Positions 6,028-55,010 of a stretch of DNA of 64,000 nt are shown in pieces. The notes under the pieces are model-generated. The model saw only the letters and a list, made by a program, of their open reading frames with translations, ran no database searches and was not told the origin of the DNA. Numbering within the stretch: the stretch's first letter is position 1; every line of letters begins with the position of its first letter. Source of the stretch: Lysobacter arseniciresistens ZS79 (GTDB lineage: Bacteria; Pseudomonadota; Gammaproteobacteria; Xanthomonadales; Xanthomonadaceae); NCBI RefSeq assembly GCF_000768335.1, contig NZ_AVPT01000008.1, forward strand, positions 1 to 64,000. The letters are read 5' to 3'. The translations under genes were made by a program, and so were the position numbers.

Positions 6028-7899
6028 TTACCGCGCGATCTCCGAGTCGCGCTTGCCACGCCGGGCCTCGGCCAGCGCATAGCCGGCGATGACCAAGCCG
6101 ACGTGCGAGAACGCCTGGGGAAAATTTCCCAACGGCACCTGACTGCGGACATCCACCTGCTCCGAGAACAGTCCGACGTGGTTGCCCAATCCGATCAGCC
6201 GTTCGTACAGCGTTTCTGCGCGCTCGAGATCGCCGCGCCGGGCAAGGTAGTCGACCAGCCAATAGCTGCAGATAACGAACGCATTCTCGTCTCCCGGCAA
6301 CCCGTCGTAGCCACTGTCGGGCGGATAGCGGTACAGCAGTCCGTCGACGGACAGTGTCTGCTCGATGTAACGGCAGGTGCCGACCATGCGCGGGTCGTCG
6401 GCCGCCACGAACCCGTAGCGCGCGAACAGCAGCAGGCTGGCATCGGCGGTCTCGCCGCCGTAGAAGCCCACATAGCTGTTGTGACCGGTGTGGAAGCCGT
6501 TGCTCTCGATATCGGCGCGGATTGCATCGCGCTCGACTGTCATTGCCGCTTCGTCGATGCCCATGCCGATGCGACGGTGCAGGTCGATCAGTCGGTCCAG
6601 TGCTACCCAGCACATCAGCTTGGAGTAGGTGTTGTGACGCGCGGGACCGCGGATCTCCCAGATTCCACTGTCGGGCTGACGCCATAGCTCGCAGACCGTT
6701 CGGCCTATGTCAGCCAGCAACTCGCGCTCCTCCGGTGCCAATACGCCGCCGCGGGAGACGAAACCGCAAGCCGTCAGCAGCATCTCGCCGTAGATATCCA
6801 GTTGCAGCTGATCGTAGGCGCCGTTTCCAATCCGCACCGGGCCTAAGCCTGCGTGCCCGCGCAGCGAAGACAGGCTGGTCTCCTGCAGTTGATCCCGGCC
6901 ACAGACGTCATACATCACCCGCAGGCGAGGACGCGTCGATCCGGTGGCATGCAGCAGCCAGTGCAGAAACGCGTCGGCTTCGCCGCGGAAGCCCATGTCA
7001 GCGAACGATTGCAGCACCATCGAGGTGTCGCGCAACCAGCAATAGCGGTAGTCCCAGTTGCGTGCGCCGGTGTCGCTCGCCGGGAGCGAGGTGGTCGCGG
7101 CCGCGACGATGGCGCCGGAAGGGCTGTAGGTCAGCAGTTTGAGTGTCAGGCAGCTGCGCATCACCACATGCCGGTATGAACCGTCGAAGCAGCATTGGCT
7201 GCACCAGTCGCGCCACCAGCGCATCGTCGCGGCCATGCGCTCACGTACCGGCGCGCCCAGCGACACGCCATAGTCAATATCGCTTGCTGCGTGGACCACC
7301 GCGCACTGGCGCTCGTTGCCGGCAGTCAGCGTCTCGTTGGCGTAGAGCGTCCCGGCGTCGAGCGCGGCGAACGGCAGATCGCTGCGCAGCAACGCGGTGC
7401 CGTCGCACCCGTCGCAGAGCCAGTCGGTGTCGCCATGGCGTCGCAGCGCCGGCTGGCTCCGGGCGTAGTCCGGACGCGGCGCATACAAAGCTTCCAACTG
7501 CACCTGCCCCTGGATGCACCGCGCGACGCGCAGCAGCTCATGCGGCGACTTGGCGACCGAACCTGGCTCGCCGGCCGGCATGGTCATAGCGTCCGTCAGT
7601 TGCAGTACGCCGCCGCTGCAATGAAACGTGGTTTCCAGCACATTGCTATCGTGCAGATAGCGCTGCTCGACGCGCTCGATGGCGCGCGGCCGCAGCGCGA
7701 ACCGGCCGCCTTCGCGGCGGTCCAGCAGCGCTCCGAAAATCGACGGGCCGGAGAAGTGCGGGAGGCACCACCAGTCGATCGAGCCCTGCTTCGACACCAG
7801 TGCAAGCGTGCGGCAGTCGCCGATCGCAGCGTAGTCGCCGATCGGTTGTTGCGGTGCATCTTCGAGCAGTGGCTGGTCGGGACGAGGCTGAGGGGCCAT
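6028..7899 (-). CDS. Glycoside hydrolase family 15 (glucoamylase/trehalase-like)
   Basis: A 623-residue cytoplasmic enzyme of the GH15 type, which hydrolyses alpha-glucosidic bonds (glucoamylase or trehalase activity). The N-terminal beta domain contains GDYAAIGDCRTLALVS and GSIDWWCLPHF. The (alpha/alpha)6 barrel shows the family signature RNWDYRYCWLRD and the catalytic-acid region GIWEIRGPARH. The ATG at 7899 has GGAGA upstream and matches the family N-terminus; the longer reading to 7983 is not supported. The first residues and upstream DNA are part of a 240-base segment that recurs at 9529-9779. Trehalose or glycogen turnover is the likely role, but substrate cannot be read from the sequence. 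Confidence 0.88.
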   Translation of the reverse strand: MAPQPRPDQPLLEDAPQQPIGDYAAIGDCRTLALVSKQGSIDWWCLPHFSGPSIFGALLDRREGGRFALRPRAIERVEQRYLHDSNVLETTFHCSGGVLQLTDAMTMPAGEPGSVAKSPHELLRVARCIQGQVQLEALYAPRPDYARSQPALRRHGDTDWLCDGCDGTALLRSDLPFAALDAGTLYANETLTAGNERQCAVVHAASDIDYGVSLGAPVRERMAATMRWWRDWCSQCCFDGSYRHVVMRSCLTLKLLTYSPSGAIVAAATTSLPASDTGARNWDYRYCWLRDTSMVLQSFADMGFRGEADAFLHWLLHATGSTRPRLRVMYDVCGRDQLQETSLSSLRGHAGLGPVRIGNGAYDQLQLDIYGEMLLTACGFVSRGGVLAPEERELLADIGRTVCELWRQPDSGIWEIRGPARHNTYSKLMCWVALDRLIDLHRRIGMGIDEAAMTVERDAIRADIESNGFHTGHNSYVGFYGGETADASLLLFARYGFVAADDPRMVGTCRYIEQTLSVDGLLYRYPPDSGYDGLPGDENAFVICSYWLVDYLARRGDLERAETLYERLIGLGNHVGLFSEQVDVRSQVPLGNFPQAFSHVGLVIAGYALAEARRGKRDSEIAR

Positions 7900-11436: not shown

Positions 11437-12186
11437 CTAGCCCTGACGGTTCGGCTGCATTTGCTCCCGATACTTTTCCAAGTGAGGGGGAAGCAGTTCT
11501 GGACAGCGGCCGCACTGCCTGTTGGCAGGGATGGCGTAGTCCATGAACTCGGGGTAAGGCAGACCGAGCCCCGCCATGATCTCCAGAAACTCTTCCAGCG
11601 TGCGGTCATCCCCCAGGCGGGGGTTGCGGTTGCGCTCCTGCGCGATCGTCGAGACACGCCGCTGTTTGTAGTCGTGTGCGGGGTACACCAGCGTTTCACC
11701 TGAGAGCCGAAAGAGCATGTCGCGCACGCTGGAATAAAGGGTTCGTGCGTCGCCGCTCTGGAAATCCGTACGGCCACAGCCGTCGATCAGGAGCGCATCG
11801 CCCGTGAAGACCCGGTCCCCGGTCAGGACGCTGAAATGGTTGTCGGTGTGCCCCGGAGTGTGCAGAGGGAGCAGTTGCAGGCTGCCGATTTGCAAAGGTA
11901 CGCCGTCATCCATCGCAACATCGGCACACGGCAAGCCATCAAGCCCGGGCGTCGCAATCCGACTGCCCACCTCGCGCTTGAGTTGCAATGCGGATGTGAT
12001 GTGATCGGCGTGTATGTGGGTGTCGATCGTCATCACAAGGCGGAGTTCCAAGTCACTGATTACCTCCAGATCCCGTCGCCACGCAGGCAACACGGGGTCA
12101 ATCAGGGCCGCCTCCCCGGTTTCCGGGCATCCGATCAGGTAGGTGTATGTCGATGAAACCGGTTCGTACAGTTGGCGAAAGATCAT
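11437..12186 (-). CDS. Persulfide dioxygenase-like MBL-fold hydrolase (ETHE1/Blh type)
   Basis: A 249-residue metallo-beta-lactamase-fold protein. It shows the metal motif THIHADHITSA (HxHxDH), the second histidine in LHTPGHTDNH, the aspartate in FTGDALLIDGCGRTDFQ and a late YPAHDY histidine. GRTDFQ is characteristic of ETHE1-type persulfide dioxygenases, which oxidise glutathione persulfide to sulfite using one iron, and not of glyoxalase II. The ATG at 12186 has AGGAG eight bases upstream. No rhodanese domain is fused. It stands as a single gene between the Met-rich protein and cusF, and may deal with sulfide or persulfide stress linked to thiophilic metals. Confidence 0.85.
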   Translation of the reverse strand: MIFRQLYEPVSSTYTYLIGCPETGEAALIDPVLPAWRRDLEVISDLELRLVMTIDTHIHADHITSALQLKREVGSRIATPGLDGLPCADVAMDDGVPLQIGSLQLLPLHTPGHTDNHFSVLTGDRVFTGDALLIDGCGRTDFQSGDARTLYSSVRDMLFRLSGETLVYPAHDYKQRRVSTIAQERNRNPRLGDDRTLEEFLEIMAGLGLPYPEFMDYAIPANRQCGRCPELLPPHLEKYREQMQPNRQG

Positions 12187-12346
12187 CAGTGGAACTCCTA
12201 TCCCGCAAGACGGGGCCTCTTCAACGTAGTTCGCTTCTTTCAATGTTCGAGTCCGCGACCGAGCTGACCCCGGGGTGTCGGGAGCAAACCGGCGGAGATC
12301 CCGCAGCGCGATGGCCTTGAAGACCTTCGCGCTGCGGGGTGTTCAC

Positions 12347-47864: not shown

Positions 47865-48605
47865 ATGGACACGGATATACGCCTGAGCACAACTGGTCTC
47901 GATGATGGTGGAAGATCGACGGTGGCCGCCAAGTCGCTATTGCAGCACACCGTAGACGCACGCACGGTCGCCCTGCTCGTGTCGGCGACCACCCCCACGA
48001 TCCTCGCCTCCACCTATCTCGAGCTGAGGCGCGACGGCACGTATTTGGTGATTGCAAATACTGAGTCGACCGAAAATATCAAAAATGCGCTGGCGGCAAC
48101 GGCACGTCTCGTGGCAGCCGTCGAGGCGTGTGCCGCCAATCCGACCCGTGAGATGGAAACGGCGCTAGAGGGCGCCGAGCGTGCGTTCCAGCCAACGGAA
48201 CTGCGCAGTCTGACGAATGCACTGGTCGACGTCAGCGGCGCGCACCGCCGCGTGATCGATATAGATATCGATGGCGTCCCCATCCAACACATCGTTGCCC
48301 ATCGCAGTCAAACCACCGCCTATAGCGCGGGAGCGAAAGCTGTGGAGACAGCGGCTGCAAAAGCGGCAACGAGAAATGCTGTCACCGTCACCCGACTGCA
48401 ATCTCAACGTGATGTCCAGTTCGTCGATGGCAGTGCCGCGCTCATGACATCTGGGCCGTCGACAGACGCGATTACTCCGGGGCAGCGCGTGCTGGTCCAG
48501 CATCGAGCGACCAGAAATTTTGTCCTGATGGGCCCATTGCTCCCCAATGACGGCGGTGGAAGGACCGAGATCGGCCACCACGTCACAACCCGGGCAACTA
48601 AATGA
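47865..48605 (+). CDS. Unknown protein, first of a linked pair
   Basis: A 246-residue soluble protein of unknown family, no signal peptide or membrane helix. The N-terminal two thirds are mixed alpha/beta (SLLQHTVDARTVALLVSATT, an Ala-rich helix NIKNALAATARLVAAVEACA). After an Ala-rich segment the last 70 residues look like a small beta domain (VTRLQSQRDVQFVDGSAAL, GQRVLVQHRATRNFVLMGP). The next gene has a similar end domain, so the two may be distant paralogues. The stop overlaps the next start by four bases. Being beside the large recombinase gene and convergent with it, a role in recombination or DNA binding is possible but unsupported by any motif. Confidence 0.6.
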   Translation: MDTDIRLSTTGLDDGGRSTVAAKSLLQHTVDARTVALLVSATTPTILASTYLELRRDGTYLVIANTESTENIKNALAATARLVAAVEACAANPTREMETALEGAERAFQPTELRSLTNALVDVSGAHRRVIDIDIDGVPIQHIVAHRSQTTAYSAGAKAVETAAAKAATRNAVTVTRLQSQRDVQFVDGSAALMTSGPSTDAITPGQRVLVQHRATRNFVLMGPLLPNDGGGRTEIGHHVTTRATK

Positions 48606-49318
48606 CCGCGATGTATCAGACCGATTCACCTGTAGGCCAACAGACCATCATCACGTGCCGCATTGCCGGCATCAGAACGTACAGTGGCTCAGTCAGGATT
48701 CCTCTGGAGCAGGGCGCTCGGATTGAAAGGGCCGTGGCGGCAGTCCGCGTTCTCGCCGATCAGTTCGACGGATGCCGTATTGACGCAGTACCTCAGTACG
48801 CCGACGACGCAATCCTGATAGCCGTCCAACCGAAGGCACCTGCCGGCAGCGCGATTGATCCACACCTGTTTGGCGCATTCATGCGCAATGTTGCGGAGTA
48901 CCTGGATGCCACTCGCGAAGGCCGCACGCCCCATCTTGGCCCTGGATCAGATGACGGATCGGAGTCCAACATCCCCGCAACCTGCAAAGCGTTGCAGGGG
49001 TGCGGCACCCTCGATCTCGCCGTTGGGGGCCGTCCGCCCATAACGCTCAAGTGCCAGAGCAAATCCACTTCTGACGCAGCGCCTCCAGTTGCGCAGGAGG
49101 TGCATCGCGTGGAGGACGTCGTTCTGGTGTCCCACGATCACGGAAGATTTCTGATCTCTGCCGATCAAGCAACAGGCCTACGGTTGGGGGACCACATCAC
49201 ACTGGACGACCTCCGCACCATGACGCAGATTCGCCGAGCGCGCGGCATATTGGTTCATGGATCTACGGCCCAGTGTCAGCTGTTCCCACCTGAGCCGAGC
49301 GTGGATGCGGCGGACTGA
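48602..49318 (+). CDS. Unknown protein, second of a linked pair
   Basis: A 238-residue soluble protein of unknown family, coupled to the previous gene (ATGA). It has an N-terminal alpha/beta part (QQTIITCRIAGIRTYSGSVR, ARIERAVAAVRVLADQF), a central segment with CKALQGCGTLDLAVGGRP, and a C-terminal beta domain (VHRVEDVVLVSHDHGRFLIS, LRLGDHITLDDL) resembling the end of its partner. Its 3' end overlaps the 3' end of the opposite-strand recombinase gene by 56 bases, so the two ends have evolved together. No catalytic motif recognised. Confidence 0.6.
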   Translation: MTAMYQTDSPVGQQTIITCRIAGIRTYSGSVRIPLEQGARIERAVAAVRVLADQFDGCRIDAVPQYADDAILIAVQPKAPAGSAIDPHLFGAFMRNVAEYLDATREGRTPHLGPGSDDGSESNIPATCKALQGCGTLDLAVGGRPPITLKCQSKSTSDAAPPVAQEVHRVEDVVLVSHDHGRFLISADQATGLRLGDHITLDDLRTMTQIRRARGILVHGSTAQCQLFPPEPSVDAAD

Positions 49319-52300
49319 ACGCGGAGGCCACCCCTAAGGCACCCAAGCGACTTGCGATCCACGCAGTCGCAATGGCACGCCTGACCACGCCGTCCAGTCG
49401 CGTCTCATTCCCGAAATCAGCTAGATCGTCAGTGTTGCGGCGACATGCCCGGAGCTTGGCGTGGGCATGGCCCATATTCGTGACCTCCAACCTGATTCGC
49501 GTTGGAGCGACCTGCTCCCACATGCGAACGAACCCATACAAAGCCGAGGTCTCGCCCACGATTCCATCGCGATCGACGGCGCTCATGGTTTCGACCATGG
49601 ATTCGAGCAGCTGAAGGGCCCCCTCCCGCTCATCGCCGAGGAGAGTATCGAACCATGCGAAGAACGCATCCAGCAAGGCACTATCTTGGCGCTTCAATAC
49701 GCGCAACGGCCCGTCTAATAACTCGCGGGTTTCCCGGTCCCGGAATAGGGCTCTCCCCATCCGTCGCTCGACGATGGACACGTGTCGCCGTATCGCCGTG
49801 ACGTCTGCCGCTGTGGCGCCGTACACGCGGGCCGCTGATTCCAACCCTCCCAAGCGGTCGGCCATGCGGAACAGCGCGTCGAGTTCGTGACTGGTCCATT
49901 GGGTCCGAACAGTCGCGCCAACCGGATCCGTCGGCGCCGGAGCCAAAGGAACCTGCCGCGTTGTACGTACGTGGGCAAGCCACGCCAAAGCCGGAGCCAA
50001 ATGTTTGGTCTGCTGGGTGATCTTGTCGACGGCCGGCAGGCTCACGCCCATGGCGAACGCGACTTCACGTCGATGCATGTACGTATCGGCCAGTGCGCGG
50101 TCCTGCCTCGATCGCATCAACCACGGCAGGTGCAGATAACTCCGAATGGTGGTCCGCCAATCCACATGACCTAAAGTGACAACCCGTTCCATGAGGTCGC
50201 GCGGCAGGACCACTTGGGGACCCGGCGGCGTCGGTACAGCGATACCACAGCCCTGCAACCAGACCGAATCGACATCGTCCAGAAACAAGGGCATGGTGCG
50301 CTCGAACGCTACCAGGTGCCGCAACCGGTGCAGCCGTTCGCGGCCACGCGACGTAACTTCGCGGACGAGTTCAACACAGGTACGCGCGATCGCGTCCCTG
50401 CCCTCCACAGCCATCGGCTCCCCGGCCGGAGAGAAAATGTATGCCCGCGCTCGCTGCCACGGCGCGCTGCGCAGGCCGTCAATGCCTATCCATTCGAGCG
50501 TGTGGCTGACGCCTCGCTGACGAGGGCTATCAAACAGCAAGGTACGGCGCGCTGCCGCAGTTTTGAGCCTGCGCGATCGATTACGTCGTACACGGATGCC
50601 TGCCTGCTCGCCCACGGACCAAACATCCCCGAGCCGCAACCCGAGTATTTCCGCGCGGCGCGCGCCACCCCATGCATACAGGGGCATTGCAACCGCTGCC
50701 TGTCGATACACCCTGACATCCTCTGGCGTGCGACCCGTACCGTCGCGTGCCCGCGCGAGGGCGTTGTCGAGAATGGCCACACGCTCCTGCGGCAGGATGA
50801 GCCGTGCATCCACCGACTGCGTGCTGTTGCGTAGATGGGACCGGACCTCATCAAGGTCGGCGTCGGGCATGTCGAAATGCCGCTGGCTGCAGCGGTGAAA
50901 CTCCAGGATCGCCGATGCAGCCTGCGTGCGATTGCTGCCCCCGGCCAGAATTGCTGCTTGGTAGGTCTCGCTCAAATCGACGTCATCGAGGTCCGCCAGC
51001 GAGCTGTTCCCGAGCAGCTCGACCAGCGTTCCACCGATTCTTGTGAGATAGGTATTTACAGTCTTATCCGCGGGGTTCCGTTGGGCGGCCGTTCCCTCTA
51101 CCAGCATCTGACGTGTCCACATGGCCAGCATTCTGACGACCGGCCGCAGGACCGTCTCGGGTCGCGACTGCGCCAGCAGCGCATCCACTTCGGCAATCAC
51201 TTGGCGCCGCGTCCCTGCTTGGAACAACTGGCTCGCAGGAACCGTTACCTGCGTCAGCGGTAAGGCGAGCGTGGCGCCGGTACTGGGCAGCGTCCGGCAC
51301 AGGGCCAGATACTGCGACCGCGCATTCGCTCTGGCACCGATCACAGACGGAAGGGGGCCTGCGGACCCGGCATCGGCGTCGGCATCCCCGTCAAGCTCCA
51401 TCCGCGGAATGGTTCCCACGGGATCCCCATCAATCAGCGCCAATTGGTCGGTGATGCATGCGTTGGTGGCTCCCGATTTGGTGCCTAGCGCAAATCGGGC
51501 AGCCGGTGAAAGCTCGAAGCGATTCGCCACGCCAACGGTCTCGCACAACATGACCAGCAGTTCCGGTGGCCGTGGTCGGCCGATCGGAAGCTCCCAATCG
51601 GGGAGGAATTCTGCCAGCGCCGCACTGAGCGTCTTGCGATCAGGCATTGACTGCCCGACGTACCGCCGGGCCAGGCGCGCCAATGCAACTGCCGCTAGAT
51701 TCCGCAGGGCCACGACCTGCTCGGGTCGATCACCCCACGGCACCAAGACCACATCGGACAGATTGGCCGGTCCCTTACAGGACTCCCTGTGCCGGATCAC
51801 CCCCTCGATTTGGTCGGGGTCATCCAGATACCCAAAAACCGCCAGGACGTAGGCCACGCGTGCGCAAGCGCGGGGGAAGTCCCGCCAATCACCAGGGCCG
51901 GCGGAGCCCAACGCCGCGGCGTGGCGGCGCAGTGCGTCAACCTGCCGAACCGCGTGCATCATCCCGGGTACAAAAGCGTTGTCGAGCGGACGCCGGAACG
52001 TCCCCAGCGCTCCCGGATCCTGGCCTGTGATTCCCAGCCACTTGTTGACGCGGTGCAGAACTCGACGCAACGCACGCGACCGGGCGATTCCAAGGGCCAC
52101 ATCATCGTCTGCCGCCTCGAACAGAGTGTCCCGCAGTGCCTCGGCTTCCTCGAGTTGCAGCGGCTGGACCGCCCGTCCCTCGACCTGATCCCGATAAGCC
52201 TTGTCGATCCTGCGCTCGATCAAGATGGGGTGCGACAGCACGTCCTGCTCGGCCTGCCGCCGATAAATCGCAGTCTCTGCCAACTGCCCCTTGCGCCATT

Positions 52301-54758
52301 GGCGGACCTGAGCCCGAGCATCGGCCTGATGATCGGCGACGACGGTGCTCCAGCTCTGCAACGGAGGCAAATCGCGGATGCCTTTCGCATCGGCGTTTGT
52401 CGGGAGTCCCGACCGGACACGCCAGCCCATGCTCCGCGCCAATGCTTCCAGGTGCGGCGCGATCATCGTGATCGCCGCTGCCGGAGCGGTCGGGCTGGCA
52501 TTCGAGAACGGATACCCTACCGCCTCCAGGTGACCGAGCTGCACCGAGGCCCATTCCGGCGATAAGCCCGCTTCCACACCACGCGTCCGTATCCAGACCC
52601 GGCCCCAGTTCAAGGGCTGCTCCGTCCATTCCTCCGGCAAAGTCCTGCGCCAAGTGGCCATCGTCAGCGGCGTAGGATTGGCATCCTTGTCAATGCCGAA
52701 CAGCAACGGCTTACGGCCAGCGAGCACAGCGCGAACATGAGACTCCAGCCGGGGCTGGATCGCGACCAGTCCATGTAGGTGTTCCAGATACTTGGTGATC
52801 TGCCGGACCAGACATGGTGCCAATGCCGCAAACCTGGGGTCGTGGGCGGCGTCATGGACCTTGTCCCGGAACAGGGCCATGCCTCCATCGGGTCCAAGGT
52901 AGACCTCGCCCACAGTCAACGCGAATAGTGCGTCGACCGGACGATGTCCGGCCACCACCAGGAACATGCAAGCGGTGTGCGTGACCATGGCCTCGTGAAC
53001 GGTCCGCCACTCTCCATCGTTCCGCCGAACAGCCATGCGTTTGTTTAGTACGCCTCCCGAGCCCGCAGCCAGACGCCGGGCACGGATGACTTCAGGGAGG
53101 CTGGCAGCTCCGGTTCGGGTGGGGCTGACGAACCCAGTTGGGATTGCCAGTCCGATCTGCAGCAATGACTGTAGGAAGGACCAATAGCCCTGAGCTACGT
53201 CACGTTGGCGTGGCGCGTAGTAATGCAGAGGAGCGTCGGACTGTCCAAGCGAATCCGCACAGATGAGTTGGGTCAACGCGACGTCACGGGTCTGCTCGTA
53301 GACGTGCACGGCACAGGATCGCCGTACCTGGCCTGCGGTGAACCGGAACCCGGCCTTGTCAGCAACATGGCGTGCGGCTCTGCGCAGAACTGTCGCCAAG
53401 GTGGCGCTGTCATCGGTCGCCAGCCGTTCGAACACCGCCACATGGGACCTGATCACATGCATGACAGCAGGCGCCAGTGGTAGCCGGAATGACGCATCCA
53501 CGGATTCGAAGTGGTGCGCCGACTCGAGGGATGGCTCAAAAAAACCAGTGGCGCCTGAGTGATCTTCGGGCAGCACTCGCCAGAACACATCCATTTCCAG
53601 ATAGCCCTTATGCAGTGACAGCGTGCAGGTTCCTGATGGACGGGCGCGTGCCGAAGTACCCGTCAACCGGATTGCAGCCAGCGTGCGGACCGTGCGGCCG
53701 GTAAGTGCCTGCAACAACAACCCAACCATTCCCAGTGCCAAATCTTCCGTGGTTTCCGGGGAATCCAATTCATCCAGCAGCACACGCACGACACGGCGGA
53801 ACTGCTCTAACGGCAGCACCTCCGCGTGGTGGGTCAACAGCAGGAAGTTGACGCTCCAGATCGCCTGCTGCGCTTGGTATCTGGCCAGACGCCGCGCATC
53901 CGGGTTGGCACGTCGCTCCGGGATGGTGACGACAAAGTTTGGGATTGTGGCTTCGCTAGGTGGCTCTCCCGGCTCCAAGTCCGGAGTACCGACGCAGGAG
54001 CGGGGTACTTTCCGACGGATCGGCCCGGCCGGCCGATCTGGTTCGCCCTCTTCCTCCCCATCCTCAGCTTGAGATGGACGGATCGCCTGAGCTTCTGGCG
54101 GCTTCGGAGCGACAGGGCTTGAGTCATGTGCATGAGCCAGCTCGGGCCTGAAGTGGCGGGCCCACACTTCCTCGAGCCCGGACAGGCCACAGGTCTCCAG
54201 GATCAGCGAAGCATCTATGAAGTCCTGCAGCGTCGTGGCCGCACCCAACCTCGGCAACAGGGAGACTACGGGGGACTCCGCGCCTTGGTGTCGATCATGT
54301 TCCGTCACCTCGCGGATCGCGGCAGCGAGACCCTCCAAAGCTGTTCGCCTGGGCTTCCCGTCCCGATTCCAGCGCAAGCTGCAGATCAACAATGTGGCAC
54401 GCAGGGACTCGGGCCCCGGCGCCGGGGCCGGCTCCTTCCCGATCAGAGCACGCGTGAGACGGAACCCGCCGGTCAGATCCCTGGGGTTTGCCTGTTGGAT
54501 GCGACCTTGCGTTGAGACGAGTCGCCCGTCCATCTCGGCGACAACCTCCCCGAGCCCGGAGATGCCGAGGGCGGCCTCGAACCAGACAACTGAATTGGCA
54601 ATTCGGGTAACGGCCCGCACCAACGGGAGCGCATGTGCCCGAGTAGGTATCGGATAGACGGTCACCAGATCATGCAGCAGTCGACTGGCGCCGGGCGTCA
54701 TTTCGCCAAGTGCCTGGAGCAGGTCGCTGGGAGTGACGCGATGCAGTGCTGGGGTCAA
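49263..54758 (-). CDS. Giant protein with three tyrosine-recombinase-like modules
   Basis: One uninterrupted frame of 1,831 residues, start TTG at 54758 (frame open to 54792; no better initiator nearby). I see three integrase-like regions. Module A, about 335-525: Arg355, then RRSCAVHVYEQ (Arg479, with Gly476 where His is expected) and LGQSDAPLHYYAP (Gln506 for His, Tyr513/514). Module B, about 590-755: GHRPVDALFAL (Arg605), NWGRVWIR (Asn717 for His, Arg720), LGHLEAVGYPF (His743, Tyr749). Module C, about 1205-1545: core-binding helices, GGARRAEILGLRLGDV (Arg1367), HRLRH (His1477, Arg1480), LGHVDWRTTIRSYLHL (His1531, Tyr1541), a full catalytic set. A 285-residue tail follows, and a 60-residue acidic/Pro linker lies near 205-265. 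Only C looks active. It is probably the enzyme that integrates the island. Confidence 0.72.
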   Translation of the reverse strand: MTPALHRVTPSDLLQALGEMTPGASRLLHDLVTVYPIPTRAHALPLVRAVTRIANSVVWFEAALGISGLGEVVAEMDGRLVSTQGRIQQANPRDLTGGFRLTRALIGKEPAPAPGPESLRATLLICSLRWNRDGKPRRTALEGLAAAIREVTEHDRHQGAESPVVSLLPRLGAATTLQDFIDASLILETCGLSGLEEVWARHFRPELAHAHDSSPVAPKPPEAQAIRPSQAEDGEEEGEPDRPAGPIRRKVPRSCVGTPDLEPGEPPSEATIPNFVVTIPERRANPDARRLARYQAQQAIWSVNFLLLTHHAEVLPLEQFRRVVRVLLDELDSPETTEDLALGMVGLLLQALTGRTVRTLAAIRLTGTSARARPSGTCTLSLHKGYLEMDVFWRVLPEDHSGATGFFEPSLESAHHFESVDASFRLPLAPAVMHVIRSHVAVFERLATDDSATLATVLRRAARHVADKAGFRFTAGQVRRSCAVHVYEQTRDVALTQLICADSLGQSDAPLHYYAPRQRDVAQGYWSFLQSLLQIGLAIPTGFVSPTRTGAASLPEVIRARRLAAGSGGVLNKRMAVRRNDGEWRTVHEAMVTHTACMFLVVAGHRPVDALFALTVGEVYLGPDGGMALFRDKVHDAAHDPRFAALAPCLVRQITKYLEHLHGLVAIQPRLESHVRAVLAGRKPLLFGIDKDANPTPLTMATWRRTLPEEWTEQPLNWGRVWIRTRGVEAGLSPEWASVQLGHLEAVGYPFSNASPTAPAAAITMIAPHLEALARSMGWRVRSGLPTNADAKGIRDLPPLQSWSTVVADHQADARAQVRQWRKGQLAETAIYRRQAEQDVLSHPILIERRIDKAYRDQVEGRAVQPLQLEEAEALRDTLFEAADDDVALGIARSRALRRVLHRVNKWLGITGQDPGALGTFRRPLDNAFVPGMMHAVRQVDALRRHAAALGSAGPGDWRDFPRACARVAYVLAVFGYLDDPDQIEGVIRHRESCKGPANLSDVVLVPWGDRPEQVVALRNLAAVALARLARRYVGQSMPDRKTLSAALAEFLPDWELPIGRPRPPELLVMLCETVGVANRFELSPAARFALGTKSGATNACITDQLALIDGDPVGTIPRMELDGDADADAGSAGPLPSVIGARANARSQYLALCRTLPSTGATLALPLTQVTVPASQLFQAGTRRQVIAEVDALLAQSRPETVLRPVVRMLAMWTRQMLVEGTAAQRNPADKTVNTYLTRIGGTLVELLGNSSLADLDDVDLSETYQAAILAGGSNRTQAASAILEFHRCSQRHFDMPDADLDEVRSHLRNSTQSVDARLILPQERVAILDNALARARDGTGRTPEDVRVYRQAAVAMPLYAWGGARRAEILGLRLGDVWSVGEQAGIRVRRNRSRRLKTAAARRTLLFDSPRQRGVSHTLEWIGIDGLRSAPWQRARAYIFSPAGEPMAVEGRDAIARTCVELVREVTSRGRERLHRLRHLVAFERTMPLFLDDVDSVWLQGCGIAVPTPPGPQVVLPRDLMERVVTLGHVDWRTTIRSYLHLPWLMRSRQDRALADTYMHRREVAFAMGVSLPAVDKITQQTKHLAPALAWLAHVRTTRQVPLAPAPTDPVGATVRTQWTSHELDALFRMADRLGGLESAARVYGATAADVTAIRRHVSIVERRMGRALFRDRETRELLDGPLRVLKRQDSALLDAFFAWFDTLLGDEREGALQLLESMVETMSAVDRDGIVGETSALYGFVRMWEQVAPTRIRLEVTNMGHAHAKLRACRRNTDDLADFGNETRLDGVVRRAIATAWIASRLGALGVASAFSPPHPRSAQVGTADTGP

Positions 54759-54787
54759 AGCGGCCGATGCTGTCGTGACTGTACCGC

Positions 54788-54918
54788 GTCAACTTCTTAT
54801 ACTTTTAATGCACCGTCAACTACCTAATCACCCTTGGCCGCAACATTCGTCTCAAGAAGTCGTACTCTTTTATGTTGTTGATTAGAGTGATTTTTCTATA
54901 CAAGATCTAGATCTTGTA
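54788..54918. promoter_or_regulatory. AT-rich control region with direct repeats and a perfect 20-base palindrome
   Basis: The region upstream of the giant recombinase gene is clearly richer in A+T than its surroundings. It holds GTCAACT twice (54788-54794 and 54815-54821) and, at 54899-54918, a perfect 20-base palindrome made of the half-site TACAAGATCT and its complement. Such a site can be an operator or a recombinase crossover site with inverted binding arms. Position between the recombinase and the island border suits either. Confidence 0.6.
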
Positions 54919-54964
54919 CTTTTTACCTAACGCTGCTTCCTCTCTCTCATAATGCTACCGCAAG

Positions 54965-54985
54965 CCCGCGATTCCGCGGGTTTTT
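54965..54985 (+). terminator. Orphan rho-independent terminator, plus strand
   Basis: Stem CCCGCG/CGCGGG (54965-54970, 54975-54980) with loop ATTC, followed by five T residues. It reads as a terminator for plus-strand transcription, yet no plus-strand gene ends before it within 5.6 kb. It probably belonged to a chromosomal gene that the island separated from it, or to a small RNA I cannot identify. Confidence 0.75.
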
Positions 54986-54989
54986 CTGT

Positions 54990-55010
54990 GCCCGTGCCGA
55001 AGGCGCCGGG
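54990..55010 (-). terminator. fdxA terminator hairpin with UUCG tetraloop
   Basis: Directly after the fdxA stop the minus strand forms CCCGGCGCC-TTCG-GCACGGG, a GC-rich hairpin closed by a C(UUCG)G tetraloop, one of the most stable RNA loops. There is no T-run, common for terminators in high-G+C genomes. Confidence 0.55.

Follow-up and report, generated by a model that had tools for sequence, protein, structure and literature searches.

A three-module recombinase-like protein of 1,831 residues as the probable integrase of a metal-resistance island in Lysobacter arseniciresistens

The gene and the modules of its product

In the current study, we analyzed a 64,000-nucleotide stretch of DNA from Lysobacter arseniciresistens ZS79 (contig NZ_AVPT01000008.1, positions 1 to 64,000; here contig C68:1-64000 of genome G000, hereafter the window) and, within it, one very long open reading frame (ORF) on the minus strand (49263-54758). 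This ORF starts with a TTG codon and encodes a polypeptide of 1,831 amino acids (P0001). It is present once in its own genome and, given the open relatives found in several other genomes, is a real gene. An earlier note on this DNA had claimed that the polypeptide carries three recombinase modules of which the last alone is complete, and this was borne out by our family alignment and profile comparisons. P0001 is probably the integrase of a metal-resistance island, at one end of which its gene is located.

The family alignment comprised 17 rows: nine fused proteins (P0001, L002, L023, L025, L026, L027, L040, L041, and L043), seven split relatives (L021, L022, L036, L037, L039, L042, and L044), and L024. 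Locus L038, whose 530-aa frame contains module B alone, was excluded. The modules were also aligned separately, A in 15 rows (alignment A7, without L036 and L042), B in 14 rows (A8, without L021, L022, and L036, in which the cut ran across two genes), and C in 16 rows (A9, without L024). The hhalign reference consisted of nine ordinary integrases, and the controls for module A were 40 column-shuffled versions and DNA polymerase IV; searches of PDB sequences covered 177,635 chain sequences.

The catalytic domain of module C (residues 1312-1570; 50049-50825, minus strand, as for all parts of the protein) matched the integrase reference at 98.5% (E 2.7e-15), and its best PDB sequence match was the integrase 3nkh (1.5e-9), with XerD at 1.7e-8. 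To judge from its residues, module C is a complete tyrosine recombinase domain, with R1367, K1399, an H-x-x-R motif (H1477 and R1480), H1531, and Y1541 all present. A stretch preceding it (residues 1185-1311; 50826-51206) is possibly the core-binding part of the module; it matched the integrases only weakly (5.9%, E 0.0064). Module B (residues 575-785; 52404-53036) matched the reference at 93.9% (E 1.5e-7, 142 columns), its best PDB sequence match being the XerC-like 4a8e (1.1e-5); by profile, it is a clear recombinase domain without a conserved nucleophile. The degenerate, recombinase-like module A (residues 310-535; 53154-53831) reached only 10.3% (E 0.003). Its score of 29.2 over 167 co-linear columns nevertheless compares with a maximum of 18.3 among the 40 shuffles and with 19.3 for DNA polymerase IV. 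Moreover, 4a8e was again the best PDB sequence match, at 0.0091 (0.047 for the main stretch alone), and the next matches were unrelated proteins at 0.23 and worse. On the strength of this weak but co-linear profile score and of 4a8e as the best match, we consider a recombinase fold for module A likely, not proven. The integrase likeness was clear in C and B and weak in A.

The individual motifs proposed in the earlier note fared unevenly. R1367, H1477, R1480, H1531, and Y1541 of module C, and N717 of module B, all exist as stated. In module A, however, R355 lies one residue off the catalytic Arg column in the hhalign comparison, and the third-motif His column is occupied by D502, not by Q506; when A is aligned with 4a8e, Y513 (codon at 53220-53222) does fall on the column of the catalytic Tyr. 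For module B, the replacement of the second-motif His by Asn (N717) held, but there is no conserved Tyr in the catalytic position.

The remainder of the protein consists of an N-terminal region (residues 1-309; 53832-54758), whose residues 1-215 had no match to integrases, the region between B and C (residues 786-1115; 51414-52403), of which the tested part (885-1115) had no detectable recombinase similarity, and a C-terminal region (residues 1571-1831; 49266-50048). By eye, the B-C region seemed to hold a fourth module in decayed form, but this was dropped, as hhalign gave it 0.2% and a score inside the shuffle range. Structure predictions, made with three alignment rows, had a mean predicted local distance difference test score (pLDDT) of 42.7 for residues 232-1135 and 38.0 for residues 860-1720, which is too poor for a test of the fold. 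With the first of these poor models, Foldseek returned 76 matches at E <=10 and none at E 0.001; XerA (5hxy) ranked seventh, with a probability of 0.90 and E 1.3.

None of the integrase models of Pfam and NCBIfam matched P0001 at E 1. PF00589 matched L002 at 0.0007, under the cut-off of the model, and that cut-off was exceeded by the C protein of the split relative L039. The family would thus include island integrases that standard models overlook.

Conserved residues and the roles of modules A and B

Invariant positions, counted over at least 13 rows, number 22 of 1,831, and the three modules differ in which of the catalytic residues they retain. R1367, K1399, R1480, H1531, and Y1541 of module C are present in all 16 rows that have this module, and H1477 is present in 15 of them; L024, which ends after module B, does not enter these counts. 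In module A, Y513 is the only invariant residue (17/17 rows), and the 15-row alignment of A alone yielded the same single column. The catalytic Arg and His columns of A vary, R355 and R479 each being Arg in 11 of 16 rows. Module B, on the other hand, has R606, K633, R642, R720, and H743 in all 17 rows, together with invariant G731 and G742, while its second-motif His position is Asn in 12 of the 17. Six residues after H743 lies Y749; this position holds Tyr in 7 of 15 rows and throughout the six close rows, so that it may be a private Tyr of module B in this clade. On the alignment, then, a nucleophile but no conserved pocket is kept in A, a pocket but no conserved nucleophile in B, and both in C. 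The two modules had been described earlier as decayed into structural partners. They are indeed incomplete, but they are not simply decayed, as the part of an active site that is invariant in one differs from that in the other.

One possibility is that A and B are pure scaffolding, that is, pseudo-recombinases that bind DNA and shape the synapse in a role like that of GinC and Tfp; we would put the chances of this at about even. Such a role has precedent, in that GinC (described in PMC5385486) and the recombinase-fold partner Tfp (described in PMC10214605) are essential although they lack catalytic residues, and the absence of a conserved Tyr from B and of a conserved pocket from A fits it as well. 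However, most of what is invariant in A and B belongs to the catalytic site, which is more than scaffolding predicts.

The complementarity of what A (the Tyr) and B (the pocket) have kept instead gave rise to the hypothesis of a shared active site, in which the R-K-R-H pocket of B, on the same or a neighboring chain, holds the DNA for attack by Y513 of A, so that the protein has two working sites, A/B and C. In Flp, the Tyr nucleophile acts in trans, and XerC and XerD, as a pair of recombinases, offer a loose parallel to two active sites. That the sole invariant residue of A stands on the catalytic Tyr column, and that B retains its five pocket residues in every row with no conserved Tyr of its own, both speak for such an arrangement. 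It is less easily reconciled with the Asn that mostly replaces the second-motif His of B, and Y749 may serve B as its own Tyr, at least in the close rows. Furthermore, Y513 may be structural, a pocket without a nucleophile could be retained merely for its grip on DNA, and the structure models are of too low quality for a test. We therefore regard a shared site as unlikely, and we are similarly doubtful of its extension to an entire class of integrases, fused or two-subunit, in which one site would be split over A (Y513) and B (the R-K-R-H pocket) and C would be a second, complete site. If it were true, such a split-site integrase would consist of unequal built-in protomers packed in one polypeptide, and the island could use a probably essential tRNA as its target by supplying a whole replacement tRNA run from the host promoter.

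Attachment sites and the island

Shortly upstream of the recombinase gene lies a putative attachment site core (attR core), CTCATAATGCT (54946-54956, plus strand), which is identical to the anticodon region of the tRNA-Met(CAT) (the ARAGORN label) of relatives. The distance from the recombinase start codon to the core is 188 bp in the window and 205, 201, and 206 bp in L025, L026, and L027, respectively, so that the core is near the gene start in all four clade loci with upstream DNA (L002 begins at a contig edge and has none). By base composition, the chance expectation of the core is ~2e-4 per locus. The intervening stretch (54759-54945) is possibly arm or regulatory DNA. On the other side of the core, a terminator-like stretch (54958-54994, plus strand) matches DNA found behind the intact tRNA-Met of relatives G109 and G003 and probably marks where chromosomal DNA resumes outside the island. 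At the tRNA-Met attRs, the displaced 3′ half is trimmed directly behind the core to an extent that varies (window, 54956-54958; L027, 16371; L025, 12256; L026, 16890). The tRNA-Arg attRs (L023, L024, and L039) retain a displaced 3′ half, which starts at the anticodon region.

The left end of the putative island was found on another contig, C16. Here, a complete tRNA-Met lies behind the 5′ half of the native tRNA-Met (start 35646, minus strand), with 73 bp between the two starts, and shares 88% identity with the tRNA-Met of G109. Synteny comparison showed the DNA to run uninterrupted across the intact tRNA-Met of G109, whereas in G000 the two chromosomal sides are separated, the left one lying on C16 and the right one starting at 54958 of the window, with continuous synteny from 56582. 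A left end made up of a 5′ half and a complete tRNA was present in six of the seven genomes examined, in tRNA-Met in our own genome, G164, and G095 and in tRNA-Arg(CCG) in G210, G041, and the split system G357. Both ends are on one contig in G095 (half, 43613; complete tRNA from 43685; attR core, 83389), giving an island of 39.7 kb, and in G164 (halves, 3563 and 3634; complete tRNA, 3705; attR core, 21371), giving one of ~17.8 kb. The two consecutive 5′ tRNA-Met halves of G164 (G164:C16:3563-3781, L107), with near-identical 21-nt spacers before the complete tRNA, look as if one site had been used twice. For L023 in G210, the half and the complete tRNA-Arg have their cores at 73733 and 73603, and the displaced 3′ half lies on the same contig at 6769, 67 kb away. 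The same tRNA-Arg pattern recurs for L024 in G041 and for the split L039 in G357, with the two ends on separate contigs, and the matching patterns indicate that fused and split forms have a common target type and end structure. A tRNA with displaced fragments at both ends, the mark of a tRNA-targeting island, was found in our own genome, G164, G095, and G210. The earlier suggestion that the protein may determine how the island moves is plausible, since its gene lies at an island end, 188 bp from the core at which the host tRNA-Met is split.

Taken together, these results make it fairly probable, in our judgment, that P0001 is the integrase of a metal-resistance island that targets tRNA anticodon loops (that of tRNA-Met(CAT) in this clade), with module C cleaving and modules A and B retained as partners. 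At the anticodon core, module C would cleave the DNA and exchange the strands, and the adjacent ~190-bp stretch would serve as arm DNA. A and B would act as built-in partner subunits that position C and hold the synapse, a role that would be filled elsewhere by separate proteins. The C16 and C68 ends presumably delimit one island. The complete tRNA that it carries would be transcribed from the promoter of the host tRNA, so that the cell retains tRNA-Met despite the destruction of the native gene.

It could be argued instead that the giant protein is cargo or a relic and that another integrase inserted the island. There are 13 PF00589 matches elsewhere in the genome, and one of these, in a 207-aa frame (C16:7988-8437), is on the would-be island side of C16. 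This frame is, however, only 207 aa long, whereas the giant gene lies 188 to 206 bp from the core in the four clade loci and retains a complete catalytic set; we consider insertion by another integrase improbable.

Several observations nonetheless weigh against P0001 as the tRNA-targeting integrase. Our own attL and attR are on different contigs (C16 and C68), as is likewise the case in G041 and G357. In the seventh genome, G245, no left end of the half-plus-full kind was found, and an intact tRNA-Met is retained on another contig; neither excision nor a circular form of the island was seen. None of the four tRNA-Met attRs is a clean core exchange, since each has lost some or all of the displaced 3′ half. 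Inspection by eye of the upstream DNA of 15 loci (all but L002 and L040) found no tRNA piece in 8 of them (L041, L037, L021, L022, L044, L043, L042, and L036). As for the protein, the recombinase assignment of module A is supported by weak scores, both structure models are poor (mean pLDDT, 42.7 and 38.0), and R355 and Y749 are invariant within the six close rows, so that A and B look less incomplete there than they do family-wide.

The presumptive cargo lies further into the window (22835-46067, minus strand), where Pfam matches identify a TonB receptor, a metal P-type ATPase, a copper oxidase, CopB, cation efflux proteins, an FTR1 permease, and an RND pump (AcrB/HlyD/OEP). Between this cargo and the recombinase gene are two ORFs convergent with the latter, of 246 aa (47865-48605, plus strand) and 238 aa (48602-49318, plus strand, overlapping the 3′ end of the recombinase gene), which have homologues in the same positions in L002 (L002a and L002b, respectively). 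L026 has two ORFs at the position of this pair, but their similarity is marginal at best. The two ORFs (47865-49318) may encode accessory factors. A convergent pair is also found beside the split operons at L021:4023-6171 and L039:4853-6963, where it consists of an ordinary integrase with Arm-DNA-bind_2 and an HD-domain protein (with a TraI_2 match in L021), and ORFs of 412 and 428 aa occupy a comparable position in L037 and L041. Two further stretches, 11534-12187 of the window (71%) and G000:C16:21263-25417 (77%), resemble DNA adjoining fdxA in G083, which may therefore carry a related island.

Relatives, origin of the fusion, and known systems

Open relatives of P0001 were found in other Lysobacteraceae, in other Gammaproteobacteria, and on Acinetobacter plasmids. 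Within the family, four other genomes have open frames of 1,863, 1,882, 1,882, and 2,056 aa, and a frame of 1,617 aa in Lysobacteraceae bacterium NML91-0213 is interrupted by a contig edge, with identities of 27-52% among these relatives and P0001; the frame of G041 (L024; 1,129 aa) stops after module B, 144 bp short of the contig end. The family-level search matched 16 of 247 genomes at E 0.001, our own included. The strong matches besides our own were G095, G164, G245, G210, and G041; those in G026 and G059 turned out to be split relatives. Weak matches of residues 832-965 in eight genomes were all dropped; the three that were scanned were DNA polymerase IV. At the class level, a profile search matched 7 of 369 genomes at 1e-10, again including our own. 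Relatives of P0001 sought in phages, viral contigs, and plasmids were not found, nor were relatives of A2, A3, A4, and L043 sought in viral contigs. A 1,681-aa Acinetobacter relative is present in 42 plasmid records, and the architecture is thus not unique, as it had at first appeared to be. In 30 of these 42 rows, the relative is annotated as a tyrosine-type recombinase/integrase or site-specific integrase. In nine records (H22, H23, H25, H29, H30, H31, H43, H47, and H50), a transposase is annotated under the match, and these copies are therefore probably interrupted by insertion sequences. Among the matches listed by a search of open-access literature (titles and abstracts), there was no description of such a three-module architecture.

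In the split relatives L021, L022, L039, and L044, two overlapping genes encode A+B (743-831 aa) and C (995-1,033 aa). Since these relatives hold A+B in one chain and C in a second, the giant protein is a natural fusion of a two-gene operon and not of three genes; the giant gene would have been born by fusion of its A+B gene and its C gene. In trees of C and of A+B, most fused rows fall together and the Acinetobacter plasmid protein is placed elsewhere, with weak support. Given this separate placement, more than one fusion or fission event is likely, although not shown. A small gene of 158-197 aa precedes the A+B and C genes in L022, L039, and L044, and the N-terminal region of P0001 has no homology to it. 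With L043 included, these small first genes encode 158-223 aa (L039:12543-13019, L022:10314-10841, L044:4713-5306, and L043:1706-2377). No convincing family match was obtained for them in Pfam and NCBIfam (L039 and L022) or in NCBIfam only (L044 and L043); two struck us as reminiscent of ParB-like proteins, which we note as an impression.

The Gamma-Mobile-Trio is made up of a recombinase, a large partner, and a protein of ~200 aa. At G357:C9:115518-120172 (L106), in the same genome as a split recombinase system, three neighboring genes encode 441, 908, and 200 aa; the 200-aa product matches NF040692, and we presume that the three may be a Gamma-Mobile-Trio element. This putative trio had no profile similarity to module A, module B, or the B-C region and reached 9.7% over 34 columns with module C. 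The NCBIfam scans gave no match to a Gamma-Mobile-Trio-named model, NF040692 being the sole such model confirmed as present. Identity of P0001 with a Gamma-Mobile-Trio component, considered on the basis of these scans and of this one trio, accordingly found no support.

RIT elements are described as having three tyrosine recombinases, encoded by separate genes, that act as a set (PMC10214605, PMC8138268); each recombinase is given as 315-410 aa with a catalytic Tyr, and the elements have 34-bp terminal inverted repeats (PMC10214605). The earlier note had proposed that P0001 is a fused RIT trio, and the presence of three recombinase modules in order does recall one. Compared with that description, however, the present family has one or two genes, A and B already form one chain in the split relatives, module B has no conserved Tyr, and the element is located in tRNA genes. 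We regard a fused RIT trio as scarcely credible.

As to the target, the Islander study reports anticodon-centered attachment sites as common, with 2,083 islands (PMC4383910). The usual islands in that description restore the target from an attP fragment and leave a single displaced fragment, 3′ in 3,760 cases and 5′ in 159. The island described here shares the anticodon-centered site but carries a complete tRNA next to an orphan host 5′ half with its promoter.

Two other systems offer parallels in composition. In strand-biased circularizing elements, described as intA-tfp-intB-srap (PMC10214605), catalytic recombinases are likewise accompanied by a recombinase-fold partner that lacks catalytic residues. 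Unlike the present system, these consist of four separate genes, and the word tRNA is absent from the main text of that description. GInt elements comprise ginABCD, i.e., three recombinase genes and the small ginD, all of which are reported as needed, with cargo such as copper resistance (PMC5385486). Their stated sites are an ABC-transporter gene, ssb, and a ribonucleotide reductase gene, with repeats of 10-17 nt. Like GInt, the present system has recombinase-fold modules, with incomplete partners among them, at one end of a site-specifically inserted island with copper and other metal cargo. It is set apart by its gene content, as opposed to a sequence comparison, in that it has one or two chains in place of three recombinase genes and ginD, and by its tRNA anticodon sites and island-borne tRNA.

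Tyrosine recombinases act as assemblies of protomers, and why some systems need recombinase-fold partners without catalytic residues, such as GinC and Tfp, is a standing question. In P0001, the presumed partners are in the same chain as the catalytic module, the residues kept are complementary, and the site is narrowed to a few bases, so that the role of a pseudo-recombinase becomes testable by single substitutions in one gene.

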